Origin: Lachnospiraceae bacterium
GTDB taxonomy: Bacteria; Bacillota; Clostridia; Lachnospirales; Lachnospiraceae
DNA: 64,000 nucleotides
Assembly: GCA_022791575.1 (NCBI GenBank)
Contig: JAAVZI010000015.1
Span: forward strand, 1-64,000
Direction: 5' to 3'
A program made the translations under genes and the position numbers. The notes under the pieces are model-generated. The model saw only the letters and a list, made by a program, of their open reading frames with translations. It did not search any database and was not told the DNA's origin. This document shows, piece after piece, positions 12,158 to 27,005 of this stretch. Numbering within the stretch: the first letter of the stretch is position 1; every line of letters begins with the position of its first letter.

Positions 12158-13195
12158 TTAGCGGGTCTGCAGAAATTCATATTCTTTTTTCCCTTCTTCA
12201 TCCTCTGGATACTGTTCCACATAAGCCTGGGCTGCCGTTCTTGCACTGGCAAAATCACTGCTTCGTTCATAGATTACAATTTCCTCAAACATTAGATCCT
12301 TTGTTTCGGAATTACCGGCGCTTTCTTTCATATAATGATTCAACTCTAAAGCCGCCGCATAATCTCCCTTTTTCATCATGCATTCGGCAACAGTCCGGTA
12401 TTCCCCAAATGTCAATCCCTTTTTATCCTTATAGGAATTGTAATAGCTGACAGCCTGATCATATTCACCGCGCTGCTCATAGATCGCCCCCAGATAAAAC
12501 AAAGCCTGATATTCCTTCTTTCCGCATTTTTCCAGAATTTCCAGAGCCTTTGCTTCTTCTCCCAGTTTATAATATGCCCGGCCCTGAATATATAATTCCT
12601 CATCTGTTTCTGCTTTCTTCTTTACAATCTGCTCCAGATATGATGTTCCTGCGTCGCTTCCCTTGCTTTCATAGGCTTCATAAATTCCATATAAAAGCCT
12701 GGAATCTCCTTCTTTAGCCGCCCTGTCAAAATCCTTCTTTGCCTTTTCCTGCTCATCCATCTGCAAATATGCGCTTCCGCGGTAAAAATAAGCCCATAGT
12801 TCCTCTTCATCGAATTCTATAATATTAGAATAACAGGAAGCTGCTTCTTTATATTTTCCCAGACAGATCTGTACCTCTCCCAGATAATAAGAGAGGTCTT
12901 CCTCTGTTTTTCCTATCATTCCGTCACTCTCTTTCAGGGCCCGCAGAAACATATCCTCCGCTGCCTGATAATCTGCCATTTTTAAATTGGCAATCCCAGC
13001 GCCCCGATAAGCCTCCTGCAGATCCTCATCCTCCATAATTGCTTTATTGTAATCATCCAGCGCAAGACCGTATTCTGCCTTTTCCATATACTGTTCTGCC
13101 TTTTTCAAATATGGTTCCTCGCTGCCCTGACATCCTCCCAGCAGTAACAGTGCTGTCAAAACTGCCATAGTTCCTTTTATCCGCCTGCTGCGCAT
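12158..13195 (-). CDS. TPR-repeat lipoprotein
   Basis: A 345-residue lipoprotein. It has a basic N-terminus, a hydrophobic segment and the lipobox LLGGC (Cys22), so it is predicted to be anchored on the outer face of the membrane. The rest is built of about seven tetratricopeptide repeats (for example YGLALDDYNKAI, YKEAASCYSNII, YDQAVSYYNSY), a protein-binding scaffold. The partner is unknown. It lies between the EutP-like GTPase and hflX with gaps of 25 and 17 bases. Confidence 0.85.
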   Translation of the reverse strand: MRSRRIKGTMAVLTALLLLGGCQGSEEPYLKKAEQYMEKAEYGLALDDYNKAIMEDEDLQEAYRGAGIANLKMADYQAAEDMFLRALKESDGMIGKTEEDLSYYLGEVQICLGKYKEAASCYSNIIEFDEEELWAYFYRGSAYLQMDEQEKAKKDFDRAAKEGDSRLLYGIYEAYESKGSDAGTSYLEQIVKKKAETDEELYIQGRAYYKLGEEAKALEILEKCGKKEYQALFYLGAIYEQRGEYDQAVSYYNSYKDKKGLTFGEYRTVAECMMKKGDYAAALELNHYMKESAGNSETKDLMFEEIVIYERSSDFASARTAAQAYVEQYPEDEEGKKEYEFLQTR

Positions 13196-13220
13196 TGTTC
13201 CAACCTCACAATCTTTCTAT

Positions 13221-13652
13221 CTATTCATCTTTCGCCAGATAATCCAGAATCTGGTCAATTCCCTCGCCTGTATAAGAACTGACAAAAAATATCTCTTTAC
13301 AGCCTGCCAGCTCCAGCCACATCTTGGCTAGATCCGGCCTGGCGTCGATTTGGTCAATCTGTGTTACAATTCCTATCACCGGCCTGGTAGATGCTGCCGT
13401 AACACAGGGCGGAAACAGGCTGTATGTATCGGTGGCGCTGATTAAAAGCCCAACCACATCGGCCTCATAAGAGTACAAAGCCAATGCCCTTCCCAGGGTA
13501 TGGTTTTCAGCATACTCCCCAGGGGTATCAATCACCACTTGAAAATGATTCACATACTGAGTCTTATGATAATGCAGCTTTTCACCATTAAGAGCTTGGC
13601 GCAGAGTCGTCTTGCCGCATTCGCTGCGTCCCATTAATATAATCTTTCTCAT
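13221..13652 (-). CDS. EutP/PduV-like small GTPase
   Basis: A 143-residue P-loop protein. The Walker A motif GRSECGKTT is at about residues 8-16, DTPGEY is the G3 motif, and TQIDQID (G4-like, NKxD replaced by TQID) and VSSYTGEGID follow. This is the EutP/PduV family, GTPase-like proteins of ethanolamine or propanediol microcompartment operons whose exact job is uncertain. The start is the ATG at 13652, which overlaps the stop of the upstream shell-protein gene in ATGA. A further six codons upstream starting at TTG are possible but unlikely. Confidence 0.85.
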   Translation of the reverse strand: MRKIILMGRSECGKTTLRQALNGEKLHYHKTQYVNHFQVVIDTPGEYAENHTLGRALALYSYEADVVGLLISATDTYSLFPPCVTAASTRPVIGIVTQIDQIDARPDLAKMWLELAGCKEIFFVSSYTGEGIDQILDYLAKDE

Positions 13653-14032
13653 GTTCTTGTAATCCCACAAACAGTAAACCCGAGATTCTCCTTCGTATAC
13701 TTTAAAATTGCCTGGATCGCAGATTCTACCTCAGCAATTCTTCCTGTAATGATCAAAGTTCCGCTGAACCGGTCAATAAAGCCCAGCTCAATATTGGCCG
13801 TCTTAATTGCCAGATCTCCGGCAATAACTGACACTTCACTGGGGCACATGGTCAAGATTCCAATGGCTGCCCGCTGATAATCCACTCCCGGGTCCAAACC
13901 AAGCTTCCGATATACAACCGGGTCGGGACTTGCAATGACATGTGCCATGGTAATCTGCTTACCAGGCACCTGCTCCTGTATAATTCTTAGCTTTTCTCCA
14001 TTTTCCTGATTAACCAACTGATTAAAATCCAT
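13649..14032 (-). CDS. Bacterial microcompartment shell protein, EutS/PduU-like
   Basis: A 127-residue protein with one BMC fold of the circularly permuted EutS/PduU type: an N-terminal extension, then AAIGILTMCPSEVSVIAGDLAIKTA and the later GFIDRFSGTLIITG region. EutS-type hexamers normally sit in the shell of an ethanolamine or propanediol organelle. The start ATG at 14032 has AAAGGAG ten bases upstream; an in-frame TTG three codons earlier lies too close to it. It is paired with the EutP-like GTPase and has no other microcompartment gene in the window. Confidence 0.85.
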   Translation of the reverse strand: MDFNQLVNQENGEKLRIIQEQVPGKQITMAHVIASPDPVVYRKLGLDPGVDYQRAAIGILTMCPSEVSVIAGDLAIKTANIELGFIDRFSGTLIITGRIAEVESAIQAILKYTKENLGFTVCGITRT

Positions 14033-14102
14033 AGTATTCAAGCTCCTTTATCAAACATCTGTCCGCATAGTGACACGTTGGCCCGCAACTGCCTATACAA
14101 TA

Positions 14103-14131
14103 ACTATATCAAATTCGTTTTGGTTTTACAA
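14103..14131 (-). promoter_or_regulatory. Promoter of the EutS-like/EutP-like/TPR/hflX run
   Basis: On the minus strand, TTGTAA (14131-14126), 17-bp spacer, TATAGT (14108-14103), followed about 70 bases later by the EutS-like start. It lies just after the addA stop codon, so the shell-protein run can be transcribed separately from addBA. Confidence 0.6.
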
Positions 14132-14136
14132 TAGAT

Positions 14137-17100
14137 TTACAGGCTTTTTGTTGTTTCAACTATTATTTCCTTTTCCAAAAAGACAGAATATAACACCAAT
14201 TCCTTCACTCTTTTTCCGGTAATCTCCTGCAGAGCTCTTTGATAATATTCAAACTGGATACGGTAACGCTGGCTTAACATGGATTCCTGGCCTTCCTTTA
14301 TGTAATCCGTCTTATAATCCAGCAAAACCAGTTCCCCTTCCTCTTCAAAAAAAACATCAATAATACCCTGAACCATAATCAGTTCCTGACTATCCCAGTT
14401 GTCATTAATCTCACAGGCTGGCACGGCATATACAAAAGGCTGCTCTTTATAGAGCTTTCCTTCTGTCTGAGCTCTCCGCATTCTCCTGCCAATCTCCGAA
14501 CAGGCAAAACGCCAGATCTTTCTTGGACGGATAACTGCCCGCATCCGTTCTTCCAATATGCCATTTTCATAGAAATGCTCCAGCTGCTCTTCAACATGAG
14601 AAATGCTTTCGCACCTGTCTAAGTCCAGACATTCAAATACTTTATGATAAGCGGTTCCACGGTTGACCGCTGATACTTCTGCTCTTTCCTGTTGTAGAAA
14701 AGAAGGCTGAATCTTCACACTTTCCTGCAGTGGGTATAGTAGATGCCCTTCTTCCGGTTCCTCTCTTTGGGCACGCTTTAATTCCGATACGGTTACTTTG
14801 GCCGGAATGCTCATCTGCTCTTCATATTGATACTGATATTCCAACCTTTCCCGAAGTTTTTCCGGCAGCTCTTCCTGATTCCCAGACTTCTCCATATCCA
14901 TCTGCAGATTCATCCGTTCTTCCTGTACCAGTTCCTGAAGATCTTCTTCTATCAATTCTGATAACTGAATCTCTCGGATCAAAAAAGAAGCATGGGGAAA
15001 ATCTGACTGCACACGGGTAGACGGAGGGGTACTGATATAATTTCTGATTTCTTCCTCTGCATCCGGATGACCAGAAAGTGCTGCCAAAATCCACTCCATA
15101 TAGCTGCCTGCCATAGTCAGGCTGCCATAGTCCGGCGCAGATGAATAGCCGTCCCGGCAGGCCCTTTTAATACACTTTTCTATCTGATCAACACCACCGG
15201 TCAGAATCAGTTTCTCCCGCGCACGGGTCAGGGCGACATACAATACCCTGAGTTCTTCCCCTAAGCTCTCTAATTGATTCTGCAGTAAAATCACGGAACG
15301 CAGCAAGGTCTTATTCTTCTGCCTGGTTTCCAGCAGTACATGTTCCATACCCAGACCTAACGTATGGTGGATGACCAGCGGCTGCCGGGATTCCATCTTA
15401 TTGAACTTCCTTCCCAGGCCGGCTGCAATCACAATCGGAAACTCCAGACCCTTGCTCTTATGAATCGTCATAATCCGTACCGTATCATCATTCTCACTGA
15501 TAATGGAAGCTTCACCTGTATCAATCTTGTATTTTTCCAGCTGTTCCATATAACGGATAAACTGAAAGACCCCGGCATAGCTGGTTTCTTCGAATGCAGC
15601 AGCTTTCTCAACCAGCATTTCCATATTGGCTTTTTTCTGTCCTCCTCCAGGCATCACTCCAATATAATCCCCATAACCCGTAGCATCCAGAATATGGCAG
15701 ATAAATTTATGAATCGGCATATAGCACATTTCCATTCTAAATTGCTGTAATTGTGCAAAGAATTCAGACAATTTAATCCGCAGTGCCTCCTCTTCTCCTT
15801 CTTCCATATAGTGCTGAACACATTGATAAATTGAAACCTCTTCCTGTTCAATACGAATCTTCACCAATTCTTCATCGTCCAGACCCACAAACGGAGATTT
15901 CAGTACTGATAACAGTGGAATATCCTGCAGCGGATTATCTATGATGCGAAGATAATTGAGCATGGTAGTAATCTCTAATGTATCAAAATACCCTTCGCGG
16001 GAAAGCATATGCGCCGGAATCCCTTCTGCTGCCAATTCTTCCAGCAATATCGTATCAAAGCCGCCGGTACTTCGAAGCAGAATCGCAATATCCCGATATC
16101 TGGCCTTTCGGTAAGTTCCCTCTCTTTTATCCAGAACATCAAGTCCGGTTTCCTCATCCACCAGCGCTTTGATCCGGTGGGCAATCAGTTTGGATTCATA
16201 TTGAATCGAATCTATATCCAGGTCTTTATTCTTACGGTCAAACAGCAGCAGTTCCGTTGTATAATCTCCCTCATGAACCGGCGTTGCAAACTCCATTCCC
16301 TGATAAAGCGCACTGGCATGGTCATAATCAATCCCTCCCAGAGAGCGTTTCATAATCTTCTCAAATATATAGTTTGCACTATCTAACACCTCGCCGCGGC
16401 TGCGGAAATTCTTATGCAGATCAATTCTGCGGCACGGTCCTTCTTCCAGAGAATAGGTGTGGTATTTCTCCATAAACAACTCTGGCCTTGCCAGCCGGAA
16501 ACGATAGATACTCTGCTTAGCATCCCCGACCATAAACAGATTGTTCCCACCCAGAGGCTGTTTCGATATACTGGTCAGCAGATATTCTTGTACTAGATTG
16601 CTGTCCTGGTATTCATCAATTAATATTTCTTCAAAAAACTCCGCATACTCCTTGGCGGTCTCTGTTGGCTCCCCTTCCTCATTTCTCAAAATATGAAGCG
16701 CCTCATGCTCCAGGTCATTAAAATCCAATAGATTCTGCCGATGCTTTTCTTCCTGAAAACGCTCCTGAAAACGCAGCACTGCCTGAATCAGCATTTCAAT
16801 TACCGGCGCACAATGAGACAGATCCTCTAAGATTTGCTCTGCACTCTGCTGAAAATACACTTCCCTCATTTTTTCCAGAATTTCCTTGACCTCATCCCGC
16901 AGCCCCTTCACCTCTTCTCTTACTTCTGCATCCGGACAGCTCTTTTTCCCTTTGGGAAGTGCCGGGGATGTTAGATTCTCCAGCTGCTTCTGCCAGCTGC
17001 TGTAATCACACTCTGCCTTCATAGCCTGAATCCGGGAAGCATAATAGTCAAAGATCTGCTGATAGTTTTCCGCCTCTGCAAACCCCTCTAACAGCTTCCT

Positions 17101-17802
17101 AGCCTGAACCAGCTTTTCCTCTGTATATTCCAGCATTCGAAACTGATGCGCAAATAAAATCTGCATCCATTCCGTCTGCATCAGTTCCTCATATGTGTTA
17201 ACCGTATAAAGGTTCCGGCAGTGTTCCAGCCACTGTCTGGGATATGGATAACTCATAGCAAAATCATATAAAGTAAGAACAATCTCTTCAATTCTGTCAT
17301 CACTTTTTCCGCTGGAAAATGTTTCGGTAAAACGATAGAACTCCTCACTGCCTTCTGTATAAAAATCCTCCAGCACAAGGGAAAGAACTTCCTTCTTCAT
17401 CAGCTTTAATTCGCCCTCGTCCCCTATACGAAAGGACGGTTCCAAATCTATTTCCTGAAAATGATTTTGGATCACATGCTTACAGAAGCTGTGAATCGTA
17501 GAAATATTCGCCATATGAATCCTGGTCCTCTGCCTCTGCAAATGCTCATTCTCTGGATGAAGAGCCGCTTCTTTTTCTATTGCAGCCTGAATTCGTTCCC
17601 GCATTTCTCCGGCGGCTGCCTGGGTAAAGGTAACTATTACCATCTGGTCAATATTAACTGGATGGTTCTGGTCCATCACTTTATCAATAATACGCTGTAC
17701 CAGTACGGCTGTCTTCCCAGAACCGGCAGCCGCTGAAACCAGAATATTGGCCTCTCTTAACGATATTACCTGTTGTTGTTCCTCTGTCCACTGCACCGCC
17801 AT
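14137..17802 (-). CDS. addA: ATP-dependent helicase/nuclease subunit A
   Basis: A 1221-residue UvrD-type helicase-nuclease that, with AddB, resects double-strand ends for recombination (the Firmicute counterpart of RecBCD). AAAGSGKT is the Walker A at 24-31. Helicase motifs TFTQAAAGEM, LIDEYQDSN (Walker B), VGDAKQSIYRFR and MTIHKSKGLEFP follow, then VALTRAREKL. The RecB-like nuclease at the C-terminus has LLDYKTDY near residue 1160, with the catalytic Asp and Lys. The start overlaps the addB stop by one base. It is the last gene of the run that begins at the LexA-box promoter. Confidence 0.97.
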   Translation of the reverse strand: MAVQWTEEQQQVISLREANILVSAAAGSGKTAVLVQRIIDKVMDQNHPVNIDQMVIVTFTQAAAGEMRERIQAAIEKEAALHPENEHLQRQRTRIHMANISTIHSFCKHVIQNHFQEIDLEPSFRIGDEGELKLMKKEVLSLVLEDFYTEGSEEFYRFTETFSSGKSDDRIEEIVLTLYDFAMSYPYPRQWLEHCRNLYTVNTYEELMQTEWMQILFAHQFRMLEYTEEKLVQARKLLEGFAEAENYQQIFDYYASRIQAMKAECDYSSWQKQLENLTSPALPKGKKSCPDAEVREEVKGLRDEVKEILEKMREVYFQQSAEQILEDLSHCAPVIEMLIQAVLRFQERFQEEKHRQNLLDFNDLEHEALHILRNEEGEPTETAKEYAEFFEEILIDEYQDSNLVQEYLLTSISKQPLGGNNLFMVGDAKQSIYRFRLARPELFMEKYHTYSLEEGPCRRIDLHKNFRSRGEVLDSANYIFEKIMKRSLGGIDYDHASALYQGMEFATPVHEGDYTTELLLFDRKNKDLDIDSIQYESKLIAHRIKALVDEETGLDVLDKREGTYRKARYRDIAILLRSTGGFDTILLEELAAEGIPAHMLSREGYFDTLEITTMLNYLRIIDNPLQDIPLLSVLKSPFVGLDDEELVKIRIEQEEVSIYQCVQHYMEEGEEEALRIKLSEFFAQLQQFRMEMCYMPIHKFICHILDATGYGDYIGVMPGGGQKKANMEMLVEKAAAFEETSYAGVFQFIRYMEQLEKYKIDTGEASIISENDDTVRIMTIHKSKGLEFPIVIAAGLGRKFNKMESRQPLVIHHTLGLGMEHVLLETRQKNKTLLRSVILLQNQLESLGEELRVLYVALTRAREKLILTGGVDQIEKCIKRACRDGYSSAPDYGSLTMAGSYMEWILAALSGHPDAEEEIRNYISTPPSTRVQSDFPHASFLIREIQLSELIEEDLQELVQEERMNLQMDMEKSGNQEELPEKLRERLEYQYQYEEQMSIPAKVTVSELKRAQREEPEEGHLLYPLQESVKIQPSFLQQERAEVSAVNRGTAYHKVFECLDLDRCESISHVEEQLEHFYENGILEERMRAVIRPRKIWRFACSEIGRRMRRAQTEGKLYKEQPFVYAVPACEINDNWDSQELIMVQGIIDVFFEEEGELVLLDYKTDYIKEGQESMLSQRYRIQFEYYQRALQEITGKRVKELVLYSVFLEKEIIVETTKSL

Positions 17803-20800
17803 TATGATTCCTCCTTCTGGGGATTCGACCCGTGCTTTTCCTCTATAGATTCCTTCATACGGGCATAGATTTCAGAATCGTTCAGCTTCTCCAGCTTACG
17901 GAATTCCTGGGGCTGCCCGTTCCTCTCCTGCATACAAATACTTCGATAGCCGCAGTAACTACAAGAAGTCAGCTCATGATCCATATAGGGATTGATCTGT
18001 ATATCGCCTGATAAAATTTCCTCTCCCATACTTCTCATCTTCTGGCTGGCATACTCCATCATGACCTGAAATTCTTCTTCCGATACCGTTTTGCTCCTGG
18101 CTGACAAAGTTCCGTCCTTCTTGCGGCTGACCGGAATCACCTTGGATTCATAAACTGCCCCTTCTTCTTCAAAGGTTCGATCCATTCCAGACAGTACTTC
18201 CTCGTTATCACTAATCACACCATCCACTCGGAGTGCCTTGAGAAGCTGATCTTCATAATCCGCTTCCCGGCTGCGCTCTATCAGCGGATCATCTACCCTA
18301 TAATAGACAATACCTGCCGGAAGCACTTTCTTCTCCGGGTACAGCTCCTTCTCAAACTGCATGGCTGCCTGCAGGTATACAATTAGCTGCAGTTGGGTTC
18401 CATAATAAACATTCAGCAGTTTAAACTCCTTTTTACCTGTTTTGTAATCCATCACCTTCACATATAAGTGGTCTTCTTTCTCACAGATATCCATACGGTC
18501 AATCCTGCCTCTGAGGTTCAGCCTTGCCGCTTCTTTTAAACCATTCTGAATCGGCTCTGTATTATGAAACTGCAGTTCATAACGGGAGGGAATAAACTGT
18601 CCCTGAGCCAGCTGTTTTGTCAAGGCCCACACGGTACGCTTGGCAATCCGCTTCATTCTTGTTATGCGGTACTGATCTCTCGCTGTATAATATAAAACTG
18701 CAGAATCGTACTTTAATATGGCAGCATCGACACATTGTTCAATCAGCTGCTCTTGCAGCTCCTCCTCCACTTCACTCCATAACAGATTTCTTTTCGCCAA
18801 CTCTTTTGCATAAAGCTCCAGAGCCTCATGAAGAATATTACCAAAGTCCAGGTTCTGAAAACCATATTCCTCCCGTTCTCCCGCACCAAGTCCGTACTGG
18901 AGAAAATGAGCATACGCACACGCAGCATACTTTTCCAATCGAGTCACGCTGCCGGACAGTTCATTGGTATACAGCGCTTTGGCAAGCGCTGCTTGAATAC
19001 GGTCACTGCCTTTGCCGTCCCTAGCTGCTTTCTTAAGTTTCTGCAAATGCTCCTTATACCAAGGCTTTTCCTCGAACCAGCGGTACAGCGGATAAAAAGC
19101 TTCTGGCTTGGTTCTTCTCAAATATGTAATGACATACTGCATAGCATTGACCGGAGAGACAATGCTGGCAAATTCTTTCCGCCGTTCTTCCTCATCTGTT
19201 ACAATGGTCTGCGGAAATAACTGTAGAACAGTCTTAATCAGGTAAGAAGGATTCCTGGCCTCGCCAGAGGCATCCACCTTGCTATAAGACAAATACAGCT
19301 TTTCACGGGGTTTGGTCATATTCAGGTACAGATAAAACTTCTGGGTATAATATTGTTCTTCTCGGCCAGGTGCCAGTTCAATCCCCTGTTCTCTTAAATG
19401 CTCTCTCTCCAATTCTGACAGTATTCCTGCCTCTGATTTATTCTTGGGAATCACACCGTCATTTACCCCCAGAAAGAATAATGCCCTGATATCTTTTAAA
19501 CGACTTCGTTCAATATCACCAACCGTCACTTGGTCTACTCCTGGCGGAATAATACCCACTTTGGTCTCTGCAAACCCCGCGTCCAGAAGCTTTGCATACT
19601 CTTCTCCATCCATTTTCTCATTGCCCAGAAGTTCCGCCAGCCGCTCCAGAATCTCAATTACAACCTTATACATCTGGCTATACTCTTTCCCCAAGGCCGT
19701 TTCTCCCCGCTCCTGGAAAATTTGTGTATATTGTTCTAATTGTTCCTGTACTTTATATATTTCCAATAATTGATACAATTCTTTGGTTTTTTCCAAAACC
19801 GTGGTCCGTTTCGAACGAATTACTTTGGTAAATGCAAGCATAGGCTGAATAAACTGCTCTCTTGATTGGTTTAGTTCCTTCAGCTCCTCTTCCTCCATGC
19901 CTCTTAGCGGTGACTGCCACTCTTCCTTCCAGCGTTTGCGTCCGCGGATTCCCTTTGCCAAAATATAATTTTGCATCTGATCTAAGACAGACTGTTCTAT
20001 AGGAATCAGCCCTGTCCTCCAGAGTTTTCCCACACTCTCATAGGTAAAGTCCCTGACTGCGCACTCCAGCAGACTTCGAATACAGGCAATCGCCGGATTA
20101 GCCAAAGCGTTTCTCTTATAATCGCTGAAATACGGAATCTGATATTGTTCAAACACCCGCTCTGCATAACTGCCGTACTTTGCAAGTTCTCCAGTTACAA
20201 CGGCAATATCCCGGTAACGATATCCTTCTTCTATAACTAAACGCCGAATCTCCTCTGCCGCAAACTGCATTTCCTCCAAAGGGTTCCGGCACTGATGAAT
20301 GCTGATTTGTTCCTGACTGCCTGAATAAGCCTTGGGCTGATTACGAAACAGATGTTTCTCCAGCCATGCCATGGCTGGGTTATCCTGAAATCTTTTATTC
20401 CCTTCGGCCGGAAAAATCACGTCCTTCTCCCGGCTGGCGCCAGCTTCTTCCGCCATAGCTGTCAGATCTTTCATCATCTTCGCGCTCATATAAAACAAAT
20501 GATAATCAGGAAGTGAACTGCGGACTGGCTGGGATGTATCATAAGTAACCGTTACCCACATATCCTGGCACAGTCCCAGAAGCCTTCCGATCAGCTTCTT
20601 CTGTACTGGTGTAAAACCAGTAAAACCATCCAGTATAATCGTAGCATCCTTTAAGAACAAAGACTGGTCCGCAACTCTGTATAAGGCATCCAGCAGTTCT
20701 TCTGATGTAATATACTGTTCTTTTAGAAAGTCTTGAAACGTCTCATAGATCAGTTTCATATCGTGCAGTTTTCCAAATATTTGCTGTTGATTTTGATTCT

Positions 20801-21233
20801 CCTGCAGAAGCTTGTCTAATACTTCTCCCTGTACATCATATTGCATAAACTCGGAAATCATGGATTTCACTTCATTGATATAGCCGATTTTGGAAAGATA
20901 ATTTCCCATCACAATTAAATCCTGTTTTTTTTCTTCGGCTGCTTTACGGACAACAAAAATCTTACCGATTTCATCCAAAATCGGCAGCTGAGCAGTATTC
21001 GTCTCACTAAATACCCGATAAGCAAGGCGTTCAAAGCTTAATATATCAATATTCAGAATTCCATGTGAGGGACTCATAGACACAAAGCTTTTCTGAGTCT
21101 GCATGGTAAACTGTTCTGGTACTAGGACGATATACTGATGTCTGGAGTTCTGCCCGGCCGCCTTAAGTACCTGCTGATACAGCGTATAAGATTTACCGGA
21201 ACCAGAATTGCCAATATAAAACTGCAGGGACAT
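17802..21233 (-). CDS. addB: ATP-dependent helicase/nuclease subunit B
   Basis: An 1143-residue partner of AddA. It has a P-loop GNSGSGKSY at 8-16, a helicase-like scaffold without full helicase motifs, and a C-terminal nuclease with MDYKTGKKEF. The iron-sulfur cluster ligands are one Cys in EKYAACAYAHF near 800 and the C1091-x2-C1094-x5-C1100 triplet close to the end; this Cys set is diagnostic of AddB. It starts 13 bases after the ATP-grasp gene, so it belongs to the same transcript. Confidence 0.96.
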   Translation of the reverse strand: MSLQFYIGNSGSGKSYTLYQQVLKAAGQNSRHQYIVLVPEQFTMQTQKSFVSMSPSHGILNIDILSFERLAYRVFSETNTAQLPILDEIGKIFVVRKAAEEKKQDLIVMGNYLSKIGYINEVKSMISEFMQYDVQGEVLDKLLQENQNQQQIFGKLHDMKLIYETFQDFLKEQYITSEELLDALYRVADQSLFLKDATIILDGFTGFTPVQKKLIGRLLGLCQDMWVTVTYDTSQPVRSSLPDYHLFYMSAKMMKDLTAMAEEAGASREKDVIFPAEGNKRFQDNPAMAWLEKHLFRNQPKAYSGSQEQISIHQCRNPLEEMQFAAEEIRRLVIEEGYRYRDIAVVTGELAKYGSYAERVFEQYQIPYFSDYKRNALANPAIACIRSLLECAVRDFTYESVGKLWRTGLIPIEQSVLDQMQNYILAKGIRGRKRWKEEWQSPLRGMEEEELKELNQSREQFIQPMLAFTKVIRSKRTTVLEKTKELYQLLEIYKVQEQLEQYTQIFQERGETALGKEYSQMYKVVIEILERLAELLGNEKMDGEEYAKLLDAGFAETKVGIIPPGVDQVTVGDIERSRLKDIRALFFLGVNDGVIPKNKSEAGILSELEREHLREQGIELAPGREEQYYTQKFYLYLNMTKPREKLYLSYSKVDASGEARNPSYLIKTVLQLFPQTIVTDEEERRKEFASIVSPVNAMQYVITYLRRTKPEAFYPLYRWFEEKPWYKEHLQKLKKAARDGKGSDRIQAALAKALYTNELSGSVTRLEKYAACAYAHFLQYGLGAGEREEYGFQNLDFGNILHEALELYAKELAKRNLLWSEVEEELQEQLIEQCVDAAILKYDSAVLYYTARDQYRITRMKRIAKRTVWALTKQLAQGQFIPSRYELQFHNTEPIQNGLKEAARLNLRGRIDRMDICEKEDHLYVKVMDYKTGKKEFKLLNVYYGTQLQLIVYLQAAMQFEKELYPEKKVLPAGIVYYRVDDPLIERSREADYEDQLLKALRVDGVISDNEEVLSGMDRTFEEEGAVYESKVIPVSRKKDGTLSARSKTVSEEEFQVMMEYASQKMRSMGEEILSGDIQINPYMDHELTSCSYCGYRSICMQERNGQPQEFRKLEKLNDSEIYARMKESIEEKHGSNPQKEES

Positions 21234-21246
21234 AACAAAAACCTCC

Positions 21247-22581
21247 TTATTGATCTGCGGGCTTCACGAGAATGGTCGCTATCGACATCTCACTATATTG
21301 GGTAGAAATAACGCTGCACTCAGCAATACGGGAATAGATACCGTAGAACCTGCCATGATAGACATAGAGGCCAGTGATATTACTGTAATCTCCAAACTGC
21401 GCTTCTTCCCTCTTCATCAGATCTATATTAATCGTACGATATGGCTGACAGAATTCCTGTACAATATAATGTCTGTTATACTGCTGCGGCACCAGCTTCT
21501 CCCACTCCTCCTGGCTGTACTCCACACCCGCATAAACCCCCTTGGAACCATAGGAATCTTCTGGCTTCAGAATCCACCCTTCACGATGATTCAATACCTT
21601 CTCCAGAGGCACCAATTCCTTTACAAAGCTCTGGGTATAGGGAAAGTGCTGTTGAACAAACTGCTGCTCTGCTTCTGTCAGCATCGACAGAGTCTCTTCC
21701 ATCTGAACAACCTTATAGAAAATCTTATTATGCACCACCTGAGTTCTAAAATCGCCTAAGATACAAACCGCACCCGCTTTTACTGCCTGAATCAACGGCT
21801 GCACCTCTTCATAGTGCTCCATAATATCACAGGTTACCGCTCTTCTGTAAATCATATCAATCTTTCTGCCAGACGGGGAATATAAGGCCTGACCATCGAA
21901 TGTCAGTTCTCTAATTTCACAGATTTCAGCTGTACAGCCTACCCTTCTAAGGCTTTCTGCCACTACTTTGAATTCATTCTCTGTAGCATAATCCATAAAA
22001 TCTACGATTGCCGCATGAGGGCAGCTGCTGGCATTCTCTGTTGCATCATAGATCGCTTTCAATTCTGCCGCCAGTGTATCAAACAGTTCAAACGTACACA
22101 GTTCATGATTCTCGGCAAACTGCTGGTAAGCTAGCGTTCTCTGAACGGCAATATTCAGCTCCCGGTCTTCATTCATAGCACTGGTGCCATCGGTATTAAA
22201 CTCGCAGAACTTAAAATCCCCAGTGATCTCATCATAAAAAATATCAATTCTCGCAACCGGAAGCCGGCATGGATATCGTGCCGGAAGACAAATCAATTCC
22301 TCCAGACGCGGATCAAATCCAAACAGCCTCCGGTAATCCTCATCCGCCAGATAACGGTCAATCACTTTATCAAAAATCCCATACAAGGTTCCGAGCAAAG
22401 CCTTAAAATTCGCTACGTCCCGTTCCTCAAAAAGCTTCGGCACATACAACGTTCGAACACAGCGCCCATGATATCTAGCCGAAGAATTTTCAATATATTC
22501 CAAAGCCTTCTGACCGCTTTCATAATGGGCTTTCCGATCTGCCTCAATAGACTGTATATACTCCTGTTCCAATTTTTTCAA
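21247..22581 (-). CDS. ATP-grasp ligase resembling glutathionylspermidine synthetase
   Basis: A 444-residue ATP-grasp enzyme. Motifs typical of the glutathionylspermidine-synthetase-like class are visible: ARIDIFYDE followed by FKFCEFNTDGTSAMNE (about 135-155, Mg/substrate loop), VVHNKIFYKVV (about 287-297), and GWILKPEDSYGSKGVYAG (about 335-352), the ATP-binding lysine and glycine loop. Such enzymes join a carboxylate to an amine with ATP. No amidase domain is fused, unlike E. coli Gsp. It lies 17 bases downstream of a GCS2-type gamma-glutamyl ligase and 13 bases upstream of addB, suggesting it extends the product of the former. The actual substrate is unknown. Confidence 0.7.
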   Translation of the reverse strand: MKKLEQEYIQSIEADRKAHYESGQKALEYIENSSARYHGRCVRTLYVPKLFEERDVANFKALLGTLYGIFDKVIDRYLADEDYRRLFGFDPRLEELICLPARYPCRLPVARIDIFYDEITGDFKFCEFNTDGTSAMNEDRELNIAVQRTLAYQQFAENHELCTFELFDTLAAELKAIYDATENASSCPHAAIVDFMDYATENEFKVVAESLRRVGCTAEICEIRELTFDGQALYSPSGRKIDMIYRRAVTCDIMEHYEEVQPLIQAVKAGAVCILGDFRTQVVHNKIFYKVVQMEETLSMLTEAEQQFVQQHFPYTQSFVKELVPLEKVLNHREGWILKPEDSYGSKGVYAGVEYSQEEWEKLVPQQYNRHYIVQEFCQPYRTINIDLMKREEAQFGDYSNITGLYVYHGRFYGIYSRIAECSVISTQYSEMSIATILVKPADQ

Positions 22582-22598
22582 TTTCTGCTTCCTTCTTT

Positions 22599-23858
22599 CT
22601 ATTCATTTCGATCCCGTACACTCTTCCCAGCCTGTACCAGTCTTTGCATTGGCTGGAGATAGGTTCGTTCCTCTTCCTCTAACTGCTGTCCCGCAAGCCT
22701 GAACATCCGTTCAAGCCAAAATCCCGCCGGCTTTCCATAAATCTTTCCCTGATATCCCCATGTTATCAACTGGTCCTTTCCCTGCCGCACATCCTCCTGC
22801 GTCATATGGCCAGATGGAGTGAATTGTTCTAATTCTTTGTATAATTTATACAATTCATCCCTATTCCAGAACATTCCCTTAAGCAGTGCAATATAGGACA
22901 TGGTATATTCTAAAGGCATGCTGTCTCCCACACGGATCTCCACATATTGCTTCAGCCTCACATCTGGAAATACAATAGACAAACCATGCTCTAATTGCTC
23001 TTCACTAAGCACTGCTTCTTTGCATAGATCCTTCAGCGACTTTCTTCCTACATAATCCTCGTTCCCATCCTTCTCCGCAAAAATAGAAGGAACTTCATAA
23101 ACCCATTTGGCATAAGCTTCAAACCCAAAACCATCATCAAACGTTCCCGGAACCATCGTACAGCGTTCCGGATCTACCCGATCCCATATAAAGGAACGAG
23201 CCATATGCTTCTCCCAAGGCTTCTTCTGAAAAATAGGTGCATTATCCGTTAACAGAGCAAATAACGGCGAAAATGCCACTGCAGCCCGATAAGTTTTGAC
23301 AAAATCCTCCTCGCTGTAATAATCTACAGAGCCCTGCACCGAAGCAGTCCCTCTCATCATACAGCGGCCATACATCCCAATCTCTTCAAAATACCGGTTC
23401 ATAAACTGATACCGCTTCTTGGGAATCAATTCCATATCTTCTGACCTTTCTGTCAGATGATACCCCGTTGTCAGCAGACACTGATCCCATTCTTCTAAAA
23501 TCGGATGGATCTGATCGATAAACTGCAGATAAATCTCCTCAATATCTTTCAACCATGTCCTTGGTACAATGCTGATCTCCAGCTGTGCCGCCGGTTCTAT
23601 AGAAATCACATAGGCATCATTTCCAAGGGCAATCAGCTGACCCTCACTCCTTCCCTTCTGAGGAAATGCTTCTGAAATTCGTTCCAGAAGCGCTCCAACG
23701 CCATGTGGTCCATAATAGCTGACTGCTGTCTGATCCTTCTTCTTAATTACAAAGTGCTCCACCTCCATTCCCACCGCCCCGGTATGCTTCTCCTTGCATC
23801 CAGCTTGGAAATACTCTCTGATCATCTGTATATTTCTTCTATCCGACTCGCTGCTCAT
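22599..23858 (-). CDS. Glutamate-cysteine ligase family 2 (GCS2) protein
   Basis: A 419-residue member of the GCS2 carboxylate-amine ligase family, which activates the gamma-carboxyl of glutamate with ATP and attaches it to an amine such as cysteine. VGMEVEHFVI near residues 29-38 is the family's G-x-E-x-E metal/glutamate motif, AQLEISIVP is near 93-101, MMRGTASVQGSVDY near 166-179 is the central strand, and YVEIRVGDSMP near 307-317 is the C-terminal metal site. It resembles the EgtA/plant-type GshA branch more than E. coli GshA. Clostridia do not usually make glutathione, so the product may be another gamma-glutamyl compound. First enzyme of the putative two-step pathway with the next gene. 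Confidence 0.75.
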   Translation of the reverse strand: MSSESDRRNIQMIREYFQAGCKEKHTGAVGMEVEHFVIKKKDQTAVSYYGPHGVGALLERISEAFPQKGRSEGQLIALGNDAYVISIEPAAQLEISIVPRTWLKDIEEIYLQFIDQIHPILEEWDQCLLTTGYHLTERSEDMELIPKKRYQFMNRYFEEIGMYGRCMMRGTASVQGSVDYYSEEDFVKTYRAAVAFSPLFALLTDNAPIFQKKPWEKHMARSFIWDRVDPERCTMVPGTFDDGFGFEAYAKWVYEVPSIFAEKDGNEDYVGRKSLKDLCKEAVLSEEQLEHGLSIVFPDVRLKQYVEIRVGDSMPLEYTMSYIALLKGMFWNRDELYKLYKELEQFTPSGHMTQEDVRQGKDQLITWGYQGKIYGKPAGFWLERMFRLAGQQLEEEERTYLQPMQRLVQAGKSVRDRNE

Positions 23859-23902
23859 ATCATTCTCTCCGTGTTCTTCTTTCTATAAACCATATAGAAT
23901 TA

Positions 23903-24334
23903 TTATTGGGCATAAAAGCCTACGACTTTCATTTCCTTATCGAATGTAATCGTATAATTTACCTCACCTTTTTCATAGGCTGCCGTTATAAGAATCACAC
24001 CGAAATCCTCCTTTGCTTCATCATGATGCTTTCCAATCACGGTCTCTTCTGTATAAGAAATAAATCCTCCCTTTCCTTTCGTCAGATTCCGCACCGTATT
24101 TTCCATAGTATCCAAATCAATATCCTTAAGAAAATCTTCTCTCATGCGCTCACTAAGTACTTGCTTAGTACCATTCAGCTGAATCTGATTAATCAGTTCC
24201 TCCCCTGAGTTCTTAATCGTCTCCTCATCAAATCCTTCTGCCAAATCCGTCGAAGCACAAGCGGTCAAAGAAAAACACAATACTAACAGACATAGGCATA
24301 CCAGAATTCCTGCAAAACTTTTTCTTCTTTTCAT
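23903..24334 (-). CDS. Small lipoprotein, DUF3887-like
   Basis: A 143-residue lipoprotein. It has KRRK at the N-terminus, a hydrophobic core and the lipobox LTAC with Cys near residue 26. The mature part resembles the DUF3887 fold (small alpha+beta, NTF2-like; VRNLTKGKGGF, VNYTITFDKEMKVVGFYAQ at the end). The start ATG at 24334 is set by GGAGG seven bases upstream; the frame could extend four codons to a TTG that lacks a ribosome site. First gene after the LexA-box promoter and 44 bases before the GCS2 gene. Function unknown. Confidence 0.75.
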   Translation of the reverse strand: MKRRKSFAGILVCLCLLVLCFSLTACASTDLAEGFDEETIKNSGEELINQIQLNGTKQVLSERMREDFLKDIDLDTMENTVRNLTKGKGGFISYTEETVIGKHHDEAKEDFGVILITAAYEKGEVNYTITFDKEMKVVGFYAQ

Positions 24335-24429
24335 AATTACCTCCAAAATAAAATTTTATCTTCCACTAGACAGCCGCCATTTCGCACCTTAGCAGATATA
24401 TTGGCAAATCCATGTTCTTGCTTTATTTT

Positions 24430-24473
24430 ATTATAGAACATACGTTCTTGTTTGTCAAGAACATTTTGAGAAC
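24430..24473 (-). promoter_or_regulatory. Consensus promoter with embedded LexA (SOS) box
   Basis: On the minus strand, TTGACA (24458-24453), 17-bp spacer, TATAAT (24435-24430): a perfect consensus. Inside the spacer, abutting the -10, is GAACATACGTTC (24436-24447), which fits the Gram-positive LexA/DinR consensus GAAC-RNRY-GTTC. A further inverted repeat, GTTCTTG-TTTGT-CAAGAAC (24444-24462), spans the -35, and another GAAC half-site lies at 24470-24473. The arrangement predicts repression by LexA and induction by DNA damage of the genes from 24334 down to addA. No lexA gene is in the window. Confidence 0.75.
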
Positions 24474-24553
24474 TTCATTCATGAATTACTTTCATCCTGC
24501 AATGTATTTATCATCAAATCTACTTCTACATCCTACCCATCCCCGCATACATT

Positions 24554-24575
24554 AATGAAAATAAAGATTTTCATT
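24554..24575 (+). promoter_or_regulatory. Perfect 9-bp inverted repeat upstream of the M23 peptidase gene
   Basis: AATGAAAAT (24554-24562), AAAG, ATTTTCATT (24567-24575), ending 16 bases before the ATG at 24592. It could be an operator or a small mRNA stem near the ribosome site. I cannot assign a regulator. Confidence 0.35.
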
Positions 24576-24591
24576 GACGGAGCCGTATTCA

Positions 24592-25710
24592 ATGTCAAAA
24601 AAACATTTTATTATTATCCCCAAAGAGGCCCGCTGCGCCTCAAGAAAATCTCATTATAAATTAGAAAACCTGTTTTTCATTGCTCTTTTTCTTGGTCTTG
24701 CTGCCTACGGCCTCTATTATTACCAGAACGGCAATACCCTGCCTTCCCTTTCAGATTCCTCTTTATATGCAACCACAGATACTGCAAAAGAATATATAAA
24801 ATGGGTGGACTTTAATGCTTCCTGTGAAGATCTGCAGAAAGCATACACCTATGATGTAGAAAGCTATGAACAGGAGATTCATTATAACTGGATTGACCTT
24901 CTCTCCTATGCTGCCTGTAAAAACGGCAATGACTTTTCGAAAACTTCCGTCACTTCCCAAGCCATGGAAGACTTTACTGCCGCATTAACCCAGGGGCAGT
25001 CAGTAGAAGAACTAACAAACGATATGAAATATTTTTCCTATTATCAGCAATGCTTTTCCGCCATACTAAGCGGCATGGTAGGCGAGTATGAGTTGGAAAA
25101 TGAACAGGGAAAAATGGAAAAGCACTATGGCTTAAAAGCCTTCCTGCCCATTGCCAAGAATTTCCCCTACTCGGATTACGATGACTTCGGAGTCTCACGA
25201 AGCTATGGCTATGCAAGACCCCATCTTGGCCATGATATGATGGGGCAAGTCGGCACGCCAATCGTTGCCGTTGAGTCCGGCTATGTGGAAGTCCTGGGCT
25301 GGAACCAGTACGGCGGCTGGCGGATTGGCATCCGCAGCTTTGATAAAAAACGTTACTATTATTATGCCCATCTTCGAAAAGATTTTCCATATTGTAAAAC
25401 ATTAAAAGAAGGCGATCTAGTAACCGCTGGCGATGTCATCGGCTATATGGGGCGTACCGGCTACAGCGCTAAAGAAAATGTGAATAATATCGATGAATAT
25501 CATCTTCACTTTGGTCTGCAATTAATTTTCGACGAATCCCAGAAAGATGGAAATAATGAAATCTGGGTCAGCTGCTACCAGCTTGTCCGTTTTCTATACC
25601 AAAATCGGTCAGAAACAGTCAAAAACACCCAGACAAAAGAATGGGTAAGAATACGGCGGATGAAGGACCCAGCCGTAGAAGATTATGCCAAAACCTTGAA
25701 AAAGAAATAA
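24592..25710 (+). CDS. Membrane-anchored M23 (LytM-type) metallopeptidase
   Basis: A 372-residue protein with one transmembrane segment near residues 22-42 (FFIALFLGLAAYGLYYY) and an extracellular helical region. The C-terminal peptidase M23 domain has H-L-G-H-D (GHDMMGQVGTP), GYVEVLGWNQYGG, YYAHL and EYHLHFGLQ, which together supply the zinc ligands H..D and H-x-H. This family cleaves peptidoglycan peptide bridges or acts in sporulation and cell division. The start at 24592 is preferred over a TTG six codons upstream because CGGAG lies at a proper distance. It is divergent from the LexA-box operon and ends at a terminator. Confidence 0.85.
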   Translation: MSKKHFIIIPKEARCASRKSHYKLENLFFIALFLGLAAYGLYYYQNGNTLPSLSDSSLYATTDTAKEYIKWVDFNASCEDLQKAYTYDVESYEQEIHYNWIDLLSYAACKNGNDFSKTSVTSQAMEDFTAALTQGQSVEELTNDMKYFSYYQQCFSAILSGMVGEYELENEQGKMEKHYGLKAFLPIAKNFPYSDYDDFGVSRSYGYARPHLGHDMMGQVGTPIVAVESGYVEVLGWNQYGGWRIGIRSFDKKRYYYYAHLRKDFPYCKTLKEGDLVTAGDVIGYMGRTGYSAKENVNNIDEYHLHFGLQLIFDESQKDGNNEIWVSCYQLVRFLYQNRSETVKNTQTKEWVRIRRMKDPAVEDYAKTLKKK

Positions 25711-25714
25711 TTTT

Positions 25715-25752
25715 AGAGCGTGTTTGACATCAACCTAATTCAAACACGCTCT
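25715..25752. terminator. Bidirectional terminator between M23 gene and dapL
   Basis: The 13-bp stem AGAGCGTGTTTGA (25715-25727) pairs with TCAAACACGCTCT (25740-25752) between convergent genes, with AATAATTTT before the stem. Confidence 0.75.
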
Positions 25753-25790
25753 ATTCCTGCCGTGTTAAATAACTTCTGAATAATCAATCA

Positions 25791-27005
25791 TTATAAAGCC
25801 TTAATCCGTTCCACCGCTGCTATCGTATTTTCATAGCTGCCAAAAGCAGTAAGACGGAAATATCCTTCCCCGCTTGGACCAAAACCAGAGCCGGGAGTAC
25901 CTACCACATTGGCCGTTTCCAGCAGATAATCAAAAAACTCCCAAGAAGTCATCCGGTCTGGCGTCTTCAGCCAGATATAGGGGGCATTTACACCGCCAGA
26001 CACCGTATATCCGGCGCTTTGAAGCCCTTCCTTAATCACTTTGGCATTGTTCATATAATAGGCAACCTGCTTCTTAAGCTGTTCTTTACCCAATTCAGAA
26101 TAAACAGCCTCTCCCGCCCTTTGAATAATATAGGGAGCACCGTTGTATTTGGTTCCATGGCGGCGCGCCCAGAGAGCATGAAGCGAAACCTCTCCGCATT
26201 TTAAATCTTTTGGAACCACTGCATACCCCAGCCGTACCCCTGTAAAACCAGCATTTTTGGAAAAACTCTTTAATTCAATGGCACAGCTTCTAGCGCCTTC
26301 ACATTCATAGATGGTATGTGCCACGTCCTCTTCTGCAATATATGCTTCATATGCCGCATCATAAATAATCACTGACCCATTTTTATTCGCATAATCCACC
26401 CATCCCTGCAGCTGATCTTTACGAATGGTCGATCCAGTCGGGTTATTGGGGAAACACAGATAGATCAGGTCGGGTGTCTCCTTAGGAAAATCCGGTGCAA
26501 AATGATTATCCGCCGTACATGGCATATAGATTACATCACTCCACATCTCTGTCTTCTCATCATATGTGCCGGTTCTACCCGACATTACATTGGTATCCAC
26601 ATAAACTGGATAAACCGGGTCACAAACGGCAATTTTATTATCTATGCTGAATATTTCCTGAATATTTCCAGAATCACATTTCGCCCCATCGCTGACAAAT
26701 ATTTCATCTGCCGCAATATCGGCGCCGCGGGATTTATAATCATTATCTGCAATCGCTGTCCTTAAGAATTCATAGCCCAGATCCGGCGCATAACCGCGAA
26801 AGGTCTCCTTTACGCCCATTTCATCCACAGCCTTATGCATACTATCAATAATAGCCGGCGCCAGCGGCTGGGTAACGTCCCCAATTCCCAGACGGATAAT
26901 CGTTTTATCGGGGTGAGCCTCTGTGTAGGCAGCTACCTTTTTTCCTATGGTACTGAACAGATAACTTCCCGGAAGCTTTAAGTAATTTTCATTAATTTTA
27001 AACAT
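25791..27005 (-). CDS. dapL: LL-diaminopimelate aminotransferase
   Basis: A 404-residue class I/II PLP aminotransferase that converts tetrahydrodipicolinate directly to LL-diaminopimelate. The N-terminus [15 protein letters not shown] and [11 protein letters not shown] are characteristic of Dap[16 protein letters not shown] is the cofactor loop, FPNNPTGS binds the substrate carboxylate, and [15 protein letters not shown] holds the PLP lysine. It follows dapF by 16 bases. Its presence means the organism uses the one-step aminotransferase route instead of the acyl-blocked DapD/DapE route. Confidence 0.95.

Follow-up and report, generated by a model that had tools for sequence, protein, structure and literature searches.

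A coupled GCS2 and ATP-grasp gene pair in a Lachnospiraceae bacterium: a predicted route to a gamma-Glu-Cys-X thiol, probably glutathione

Background

What is made by a GCS2-type gamma-glutamyl ligase whose gene is followed at once by that of an ATP-grasp ligase, in a clostridial genome without a GshB match? The question is raised by a locus in the window, by which is meant the whole stretch of DNA analysed (64,000 nucleotides of contig JAAVZI010000015.1 from a Lachnospiraceae bacterium). A first-pass annotation, made from the sequence letters, had proposed a two-step pathway to a gamma-Glu-Cys-X or gamma-Glu-amine product, perhaps a protective thiol or a metal ligand. A passage of a 2015 paper (PMC4595758) describes Clostridium acetobutylicum as being without glutathione synthesis genes and mentions unknown thiols reported in clostridia; a review, on the other hand, counts this species among the users of glutathione (PMC4360819). 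No paper describing the GCS2/ATP-grasp pair by title or abstract was found in the open-licence literature. Such neighbourhoods might be mentioned in a 2009 amidoligase survey by Iyer and colleagues.

Results

The locus

The features of the locus are collected in Table 1. Coordinates and domains agree with what had been described for the pair, a GCS2-type ligase followed after 17 bases by an ATP-grasp protein in which no amidase domain is predicted. Stretches resembling ribosome-binding sites (AAGGAAG and GGAGAG) lie upstream of the two starts. Each gene is present in one copy in the 3.48-Mb source genome, in which neither a class-I GshA or GshF (domain PF04262, a family other than GCS2) nor a GshB-family match at E<=1e-5 was found.

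Table 1. Features at the GCS2/ATP-grasp locus, by position in the window
Feature	Position	Strand	Remarks
addA-like gene	14137-17802		beyond addB; judged from its own sequence
addB	17802-21233		follows the ATP-grasp gene after 13 bases; Pfam domains
ATP-grasp ligase, glutathione synthetase / glutathionylspermidine synthetase fold	21247-22581	minus	444 aa, TTG start
GCS2, plant-type glutamate-cysteine ligase	22599-23858	minus	419 aa, ATG start
DUF3887 gene	23903-24346		44 bases upstream of GCS2; Pfam
Candidate promoter TTGACA-N17-TATAAT	24430-24458	minus	12/12, consensus match only; ahead of the genes for DUF3887, GCS2 and ATP-grasp
Palindrome GAACGTATGTTC	24436-24447	minus	between -35 and -10 of the candidate promoter

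Because the gaps between the genes are short, the candidate promoter probably drives the GCS2/ATP-grasp pair. The palindrome inside it, a candidate binding site, resembles a Gram-positive LexA box, and the core pattern GAAC-N4-GTTC occurs seven times in the window against 0.64 expected. The genes downstream, DUF3887-GCS2-ATP-grasp-addB-addA, might form an SOS-controlled operon. No Rfam elements were found within positions 13000-26000 of the window.

The enzyme of the first step

The window GCS2 protein matches the Pfam GCS2 family (E 3.4e-23) and, over residues 15-417, the NCBIfam model for plant glutamate-cysteine ligase (GCL), TIGR01436, at 217 bits, which is under the equivalog cut-off of 463 bits. 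In the PDB, a profile of the protein with 22 relatives finds plant GCL (2gwc, E 2.8e-80), which is also the top Foldseek match of the predicted structure (pLDDT 94.5; E 2.3e-28, TM 0.89-0.90, whole length). All 29 invariant residues of the 23-row alignment A2, made of the window protein and 22 of the 25 loci in which GCS2 adjoins ATP-grasp (near-duplicates, partial or split matches and L038 were left out), are identical in 2gwc. The enzyme is thus like plant-type GCL in fold (TM 0.89) and in every invariant residue but scores under the equivalog cut-off and has a new partner.

Family and fold of the ATP-grasp protein

The function of the ATP-grasp protein carries no name in Pfam or NCBIfam: the former gives the window protein a sub-threshold CP_ATPgrasp_2 match and a spurious KRAB one, and the latter no match. 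Alignment A1 consists of 38 members, the window protein and 37 of the 45 loci with ATP-grasp relatives, near-duplicates and partial or split matches having been left out. GSP_synth (PF03738) matches 14 of these members with a best E of 3.6e-10, the window protein itself not being among them. The eukaryotic glutathione synthetase family PF03917 matches one (E 0.042) and the GshB family PF02955 (GSH-S_ATP) five (best E 0.016), values that place the proteins in neither family. When the ATP-grasp profile is compared with the PDB, the best match is Cp1B of the fungal E-64 pathway (9cjn, E 7.8e-5), and trypanothione synthetase is found at E 8.6e-4.

The predicted structure of the ATP-grasp protein (pLDDT 93.5) is matched by Foldseek to glutathionylspermidine synthetase (GspS, E 1.1e-18) and to potato glutathione synthetase with bound gamma-Glu-Cys (E 1.6e-18), and also to soybean homoglutathione synthetase, human and yeast glutathione synthetase, YgiC, YjfC and Cp1B, with best-chain Z scores of 24-29.5 in structure comparison. 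Over the whole chain the model reaches Z 28.0-28.2 against 2hgs, 8fbz, 5oes and 3kal, while bacterial GshB (1gsa) reaches 8.7. YgiC, YjfC, GspS and the glutathione synthetases tie at Z 28-29.5, so spermidine ligases fit equally well.

Active site of the ATP-grasp protein

Seven residues (R111, D113, E127, N129, Y245, R247 and K339) are invariant in all 79 ATP-grasp relatives, four of them forming the catalytic motifs R111-x-D113 and E127-x-N129. In Cp1B, which adds an L-amino acid, Arg, Asp, Glu and Asn residues likewise make up an essential set (PMC12568646). When the family is aligned, profile to profile, with four eukaryotic glutathione synthetases (E 1.2e-5), Y245-R246-R247 falls on Y265-F266-R267 of the human enzyme, and K339 on K364. 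According to a passage on the trypanosome glutathione synthetase, a Tyr-x-Arg motif puts its Arg, equivalent to human R267, on the gamma-glutamyl carboxylate (PMC2845819), and a section of another paper has charged side chains, one of them Arg, holding the glutamate part of gamma-Glu-Cys (PMC5919673).

E. coli Gss has Thr at the position of R247, and the pocket therefore differs from that of Gss. The earlier label 'Gsp-like' was accordingly half right: the fold does tie with Gsp synthetase, but eukaryotic glutathione synthetase ties as well, and R247 corresponds to the Arg of the latter enzyme and not to the Gss residue. R418, a candidate for the human R450 that binds the glycine carboxylate, is kept in 78 of the 79 relatives, although in the profile alignment it does not fall on R450.

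Coupling of the two genes

The two genes are functionally coupled, near-obligatorily. GCS2 adjoins ATP-grasp in 25 of the 45 loci, which by record title come from Lachnospiraceae, other Clostridia, Coriobacteriia and others. Strand and order are identical in all 52 locus entries with unfused pairs (a few of them fetched twice), and the gap ranges from -53 to 171 bases. A single reading frame carries both domains, GCS2 and ATP-grasp, in seven loci, L012 among them, with four changes on the tree. Of cultured species, Frisingicoccus caecimuris has the pair, and Acetitomaculum ruminis has an ATP-grasp gene with GCS2 and GshA at other places. Among 398 Bacillota genomes (the phylum sample), 26 have a full-length ATP-grasp and 36 have GCS2; in all 26 the GCS2 gene adjoins on the same contig, once as a fusion. 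Three of the 29 profile matches were left out of this count as partial (51-69 bits, about positions 204-421). In a sample of 150 genomes of the family, ATP-grasp was found in 16, GCS2 in 13 and both in 12, adjacent in 11 and on separate contigs in one (G087). Conservation of the pair in 25 of 45 loci, with constant strand and order, excludes chance, and the explanation of chance neighbours is likewise rejected by the 26/26 adjacency.

The reverse does not hold to the same degree, as GCS2 without ATP-grasp was found in 10 of the 36 phylum-sample genomes with GCS2 and in one genome of the family sample (G002). In three of these 11 cases (L063, L072 and L073), GCS2 adjoins an EgtC-like class II amidotransferase, identified by Pfam in the first two and by sequence likeness in the third; GCS2 thus has another life too.

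Exchange of GCS2 with class-I GshA

All four family-sample genomes with ATP-grasp but without GCS2 carry class-I GshA, which is present in only 4 of the 134 genomes without ATP-grasp (Fisher p 4.8e-6, relatedness of genomes being ignored here as in the other tests on genome counts). Among the 20 loci without adjacent GCS2, the genome has GshA in 15 and GCS2 in five, one having both, so that 19 are covered. The one left over, G156, has ATP-grasp and neither ligase was found in its genome; one of the 15 GshA matches (G159) has an internal stop. On a tree of 79 ATP-grasp domains the partner has to change seven times between GCS2 and GshA. This quick tree places the window protein next to a GshA clade, on a branch without strong support. 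That one and the same ATP-grasp is served by two gamma-glutamylcysteine ligases of unrelated families is the chief reason for taking gamma-Glu-Cys to be the pathway intermediate. Mutual exclusion of GshA/GshF and ATP-grasp was also considered in the phylum sample and was not significant (0/26 vs 11/372, p 1).

Some GshA genes lie in a different cluster. In six loci (L054, L059, L060, L070, L125 and L127) class-I GshA occurs together with a distant GCS2-like protein of about 462 aa and an EgtC-like class II amidotransferase, and L070 encodes GshA and the GCS-like protein as one 880-aa fusion. An 880-aa reading frame in G079, considered as a GshF, was rejected as such because it is GshA fused to a GCS-like protein. 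The cluster seems to represent another gamma-glutamyl pathway, distinct from the first. With some GshA genes lying in it, their tie to ATP-grasp is not certain in each case. Three genomes (G103, G160 and G161) have this cluster plus a second, separate GshA, as predicted if GshA supplies gamma-Glu-Cys; in two others (G058 and G165) the sole GshA found is the one inside the cluster. Cysteine synthase genes lie near GshA in L054 and L057, the one in L054 passing the cysK cut-off.

Glyoxalase I and the lack of GshB

In seven loci, which carry four GTDB-family labels (f49, f73, f82 and f99), the pair has a glyoxalase I gene as its neighbour, divergent and next to GCS2 in six of them and with one gene between in L083. 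The three linked glyoxalases that were tested all pass the NCBIfam cut-off for GloA (lactoylglutathione lyase). Orthologs at E<1e-50 are present in 11 of 26 genomes with ATP-grasp and in none of 54 without it, and in 4 of 19 against 0 of 54 when the seven model-building genomes are left out (p 0.004, relatedness ignored). With the limit relaxed to 1e-20, the counts become 11/26 and 7/54. The gene is absent from 15 of the 26 genomes, and the window genome has no match at E<=1e-20. Glyoxalase I acts on the methylglyoxal-glutathione adduct, and the product of the pair is therefore most simply glutathione. A clear GshB was found in none of 41 genomes with ATP-grasp (33 without a match, eight with weak ones, the best at 50 bits).

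Discussion

The pair very probably makes a thiol of the type gamma-Glu-Cys-X. GCS2 would use ATP to link glutamate, through its side-chain carboxyl, to cysteine; the ATP-grasp enzyme would then phosphorylate the cysteine carboxyl of gamma-Glu-Cys and transfer the activated dipeptide to the amine of one more residue. Glycine is the most likely candidate, and the product would then be glutathione. In function the ATP-grasp enzyme would be a replacement for GshB from outside the GshB family. That the third residue is glycine and the product glutathione itself is, in our judgement, likely. The substrates, above all glycine, and the physiological role in the source species are what we infer from the comparisons above.

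The two-step pathway of the first-pass annotation is well supported by coupling and active sites. Two checks had been named there: independent occurrence of the genes and lack of active-site residues would have spoken against it. The genes are not independent (26/26 adjacency in the phylum sample), and the residues are in place, invariant in 79/79 ATP-grasp relatives and with 29/29 of the GCS2 invariants in 2gwc. Its proposal for the product can be narrowed: the replacement of GCS2 by GshA and the glyoxalase I that adjoins the pair elsewhere speak for a gamma-Glu-Cys-X thiol, probably glutathione. Nothing emerged in favour of a gamma-Glu-amine or a metal ligand.

It is possible, if rather unlikely, that X is not glycine and that the thiol is a glutathione analogue, the third position being taken by another amino acid, for example beta-alanine as in homoglutathione, or by an amine, for example a polyamine. 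Soybean homoglutathione synthetase, GspS, YgiC and YjfC share the ATP-grasp fold at tied scores, the best PDB sequence match adds an L-amino acid according to the passage on Cp1B, and other thiols are usable by glyoxalases, a trypanothione-dependent glyoxalase I being among the PDB matches. Against this reading stand the Thr in place of R247 in E. coli Gss, by which the pocket differs from that enzyme, and the linked glyoxalases, which pass the lactoylglutathione lyase cut-off where tested.

The remaining explanations do without a gamma-Glu-Cys-X product. GCS2-fold enzymes are diverse, with YbdK and others among the fold matches, and TIGR01436 is matched under its equivalog cut-off, so GCS2 might use some other amine in place of cysteine as the acceptor of glutamate, and the product would be no thiol; this is very unlikely given the identity of all 29 invariants of the 23 rows with 2gwc, the repeated replacement of GCS2 by class-I GshA, the cysteine synthase near two GshA loci (L054 and L057) and the glyoxalase I linkage of the pair. 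Gamma-Glu-Cys alone serves as a thiol buffer in some microbes, and the two genes could be co-transcribed but act separately; the pathway would then end with gamma-Glu-Cys, and the ATP-grasp enzyme would modify a peptide or protein. Peptides can reportedly be substrates for relatives of this fold (YgiC/YjfC), but adjacency of GCS2 in every phylum-sample genome with ATP-grasp, seven fused proteins and the conserved Arg for the gamma-glutamyl carboxylate make such a separation extremely improbable.

The predicted synthesis of a gamma-Glu-Cys-X thiol by the pair shares with GshA/GshB and with the bifunctional GshF two ATP-dependent ligations, the chemistry of the first step and fusion in some genomes. 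It differs from GshA/GshB in that the first enzyme is usually plant-type GCS2 and not class I, and in that the second is not GshB. The seven fusions join GCS2 to ATP-grasp, unlike GshF, and a GshF look-alike was rejected on the same two grounds. Glutathione-type synthesis as such is known; what would be new is the different second enzyme and the different fusion.

With eukaryotic glutathione and homoglutathione synthetases (5oes, 3kal, 2hgs, 1m0w) the ATP-grasp enzyme has in common the whole-chain fold, R-x-D, E-x-N and the Arg for the gamma-glutamyl carboxylate, but it is no member of their sequence family (PF03917 in 1/38; pairwise profile E 1.2e-5). Gss, YgiC, YjfC and trypanothione synthetase share its fold and the pre-ATP-grasp motif, and GSP_synth matches 14/38 members, though not the window protein. 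In contrast to the Gss group, it has no amidase domain, carries R247 where Gss has Thr and nearly always has a gamma-Glu-Cys ligase in its genome. Cp1B has the same kind of essential Arg/Asp/Glu/Asn set, whereas its acid substrate and pathway are different.

The pair could explain how anaerobes thought to be without glutathione genes make such thiols, and it would be a non-orthologous replacement of GshB, together with a fusion that resembles GshF but is assembled from unrelated domains. As the pathway is recognisable from two genes, or sometimes one, annotation could predict which gut and environmental anaerobes make the thiol, and the old question of clostridial thiols becomes directly testable. 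A bolder reading, which we hold only tentatively and consider doubtful, is that of a widespread, independently assembled pathway of anaerobic Bacillota and Coriobacteriia to a new gamma-Glu-Cys-X thiol other than glutathione, used by glyoxalase I and in redox defence. If true, this would explain the reports of unknown thiols from clostridia.

Two further observations concern the neighbourhoods. Four genomes with the family label f61 (L076, L077, L078 and L079) have a divergent GCS2-like protein and no ATP-grasp; its N-terminal Gly/Glu motif looks altered, and its gene lies downstream of a small gene and, in three of the four, also of a gene resembling diaminopimelate epimerase in sequence. Genes for a zinc-type ABC transporter, assigned by sequence only, recur near ATP-grasp in L039, L065, L092 and L101.
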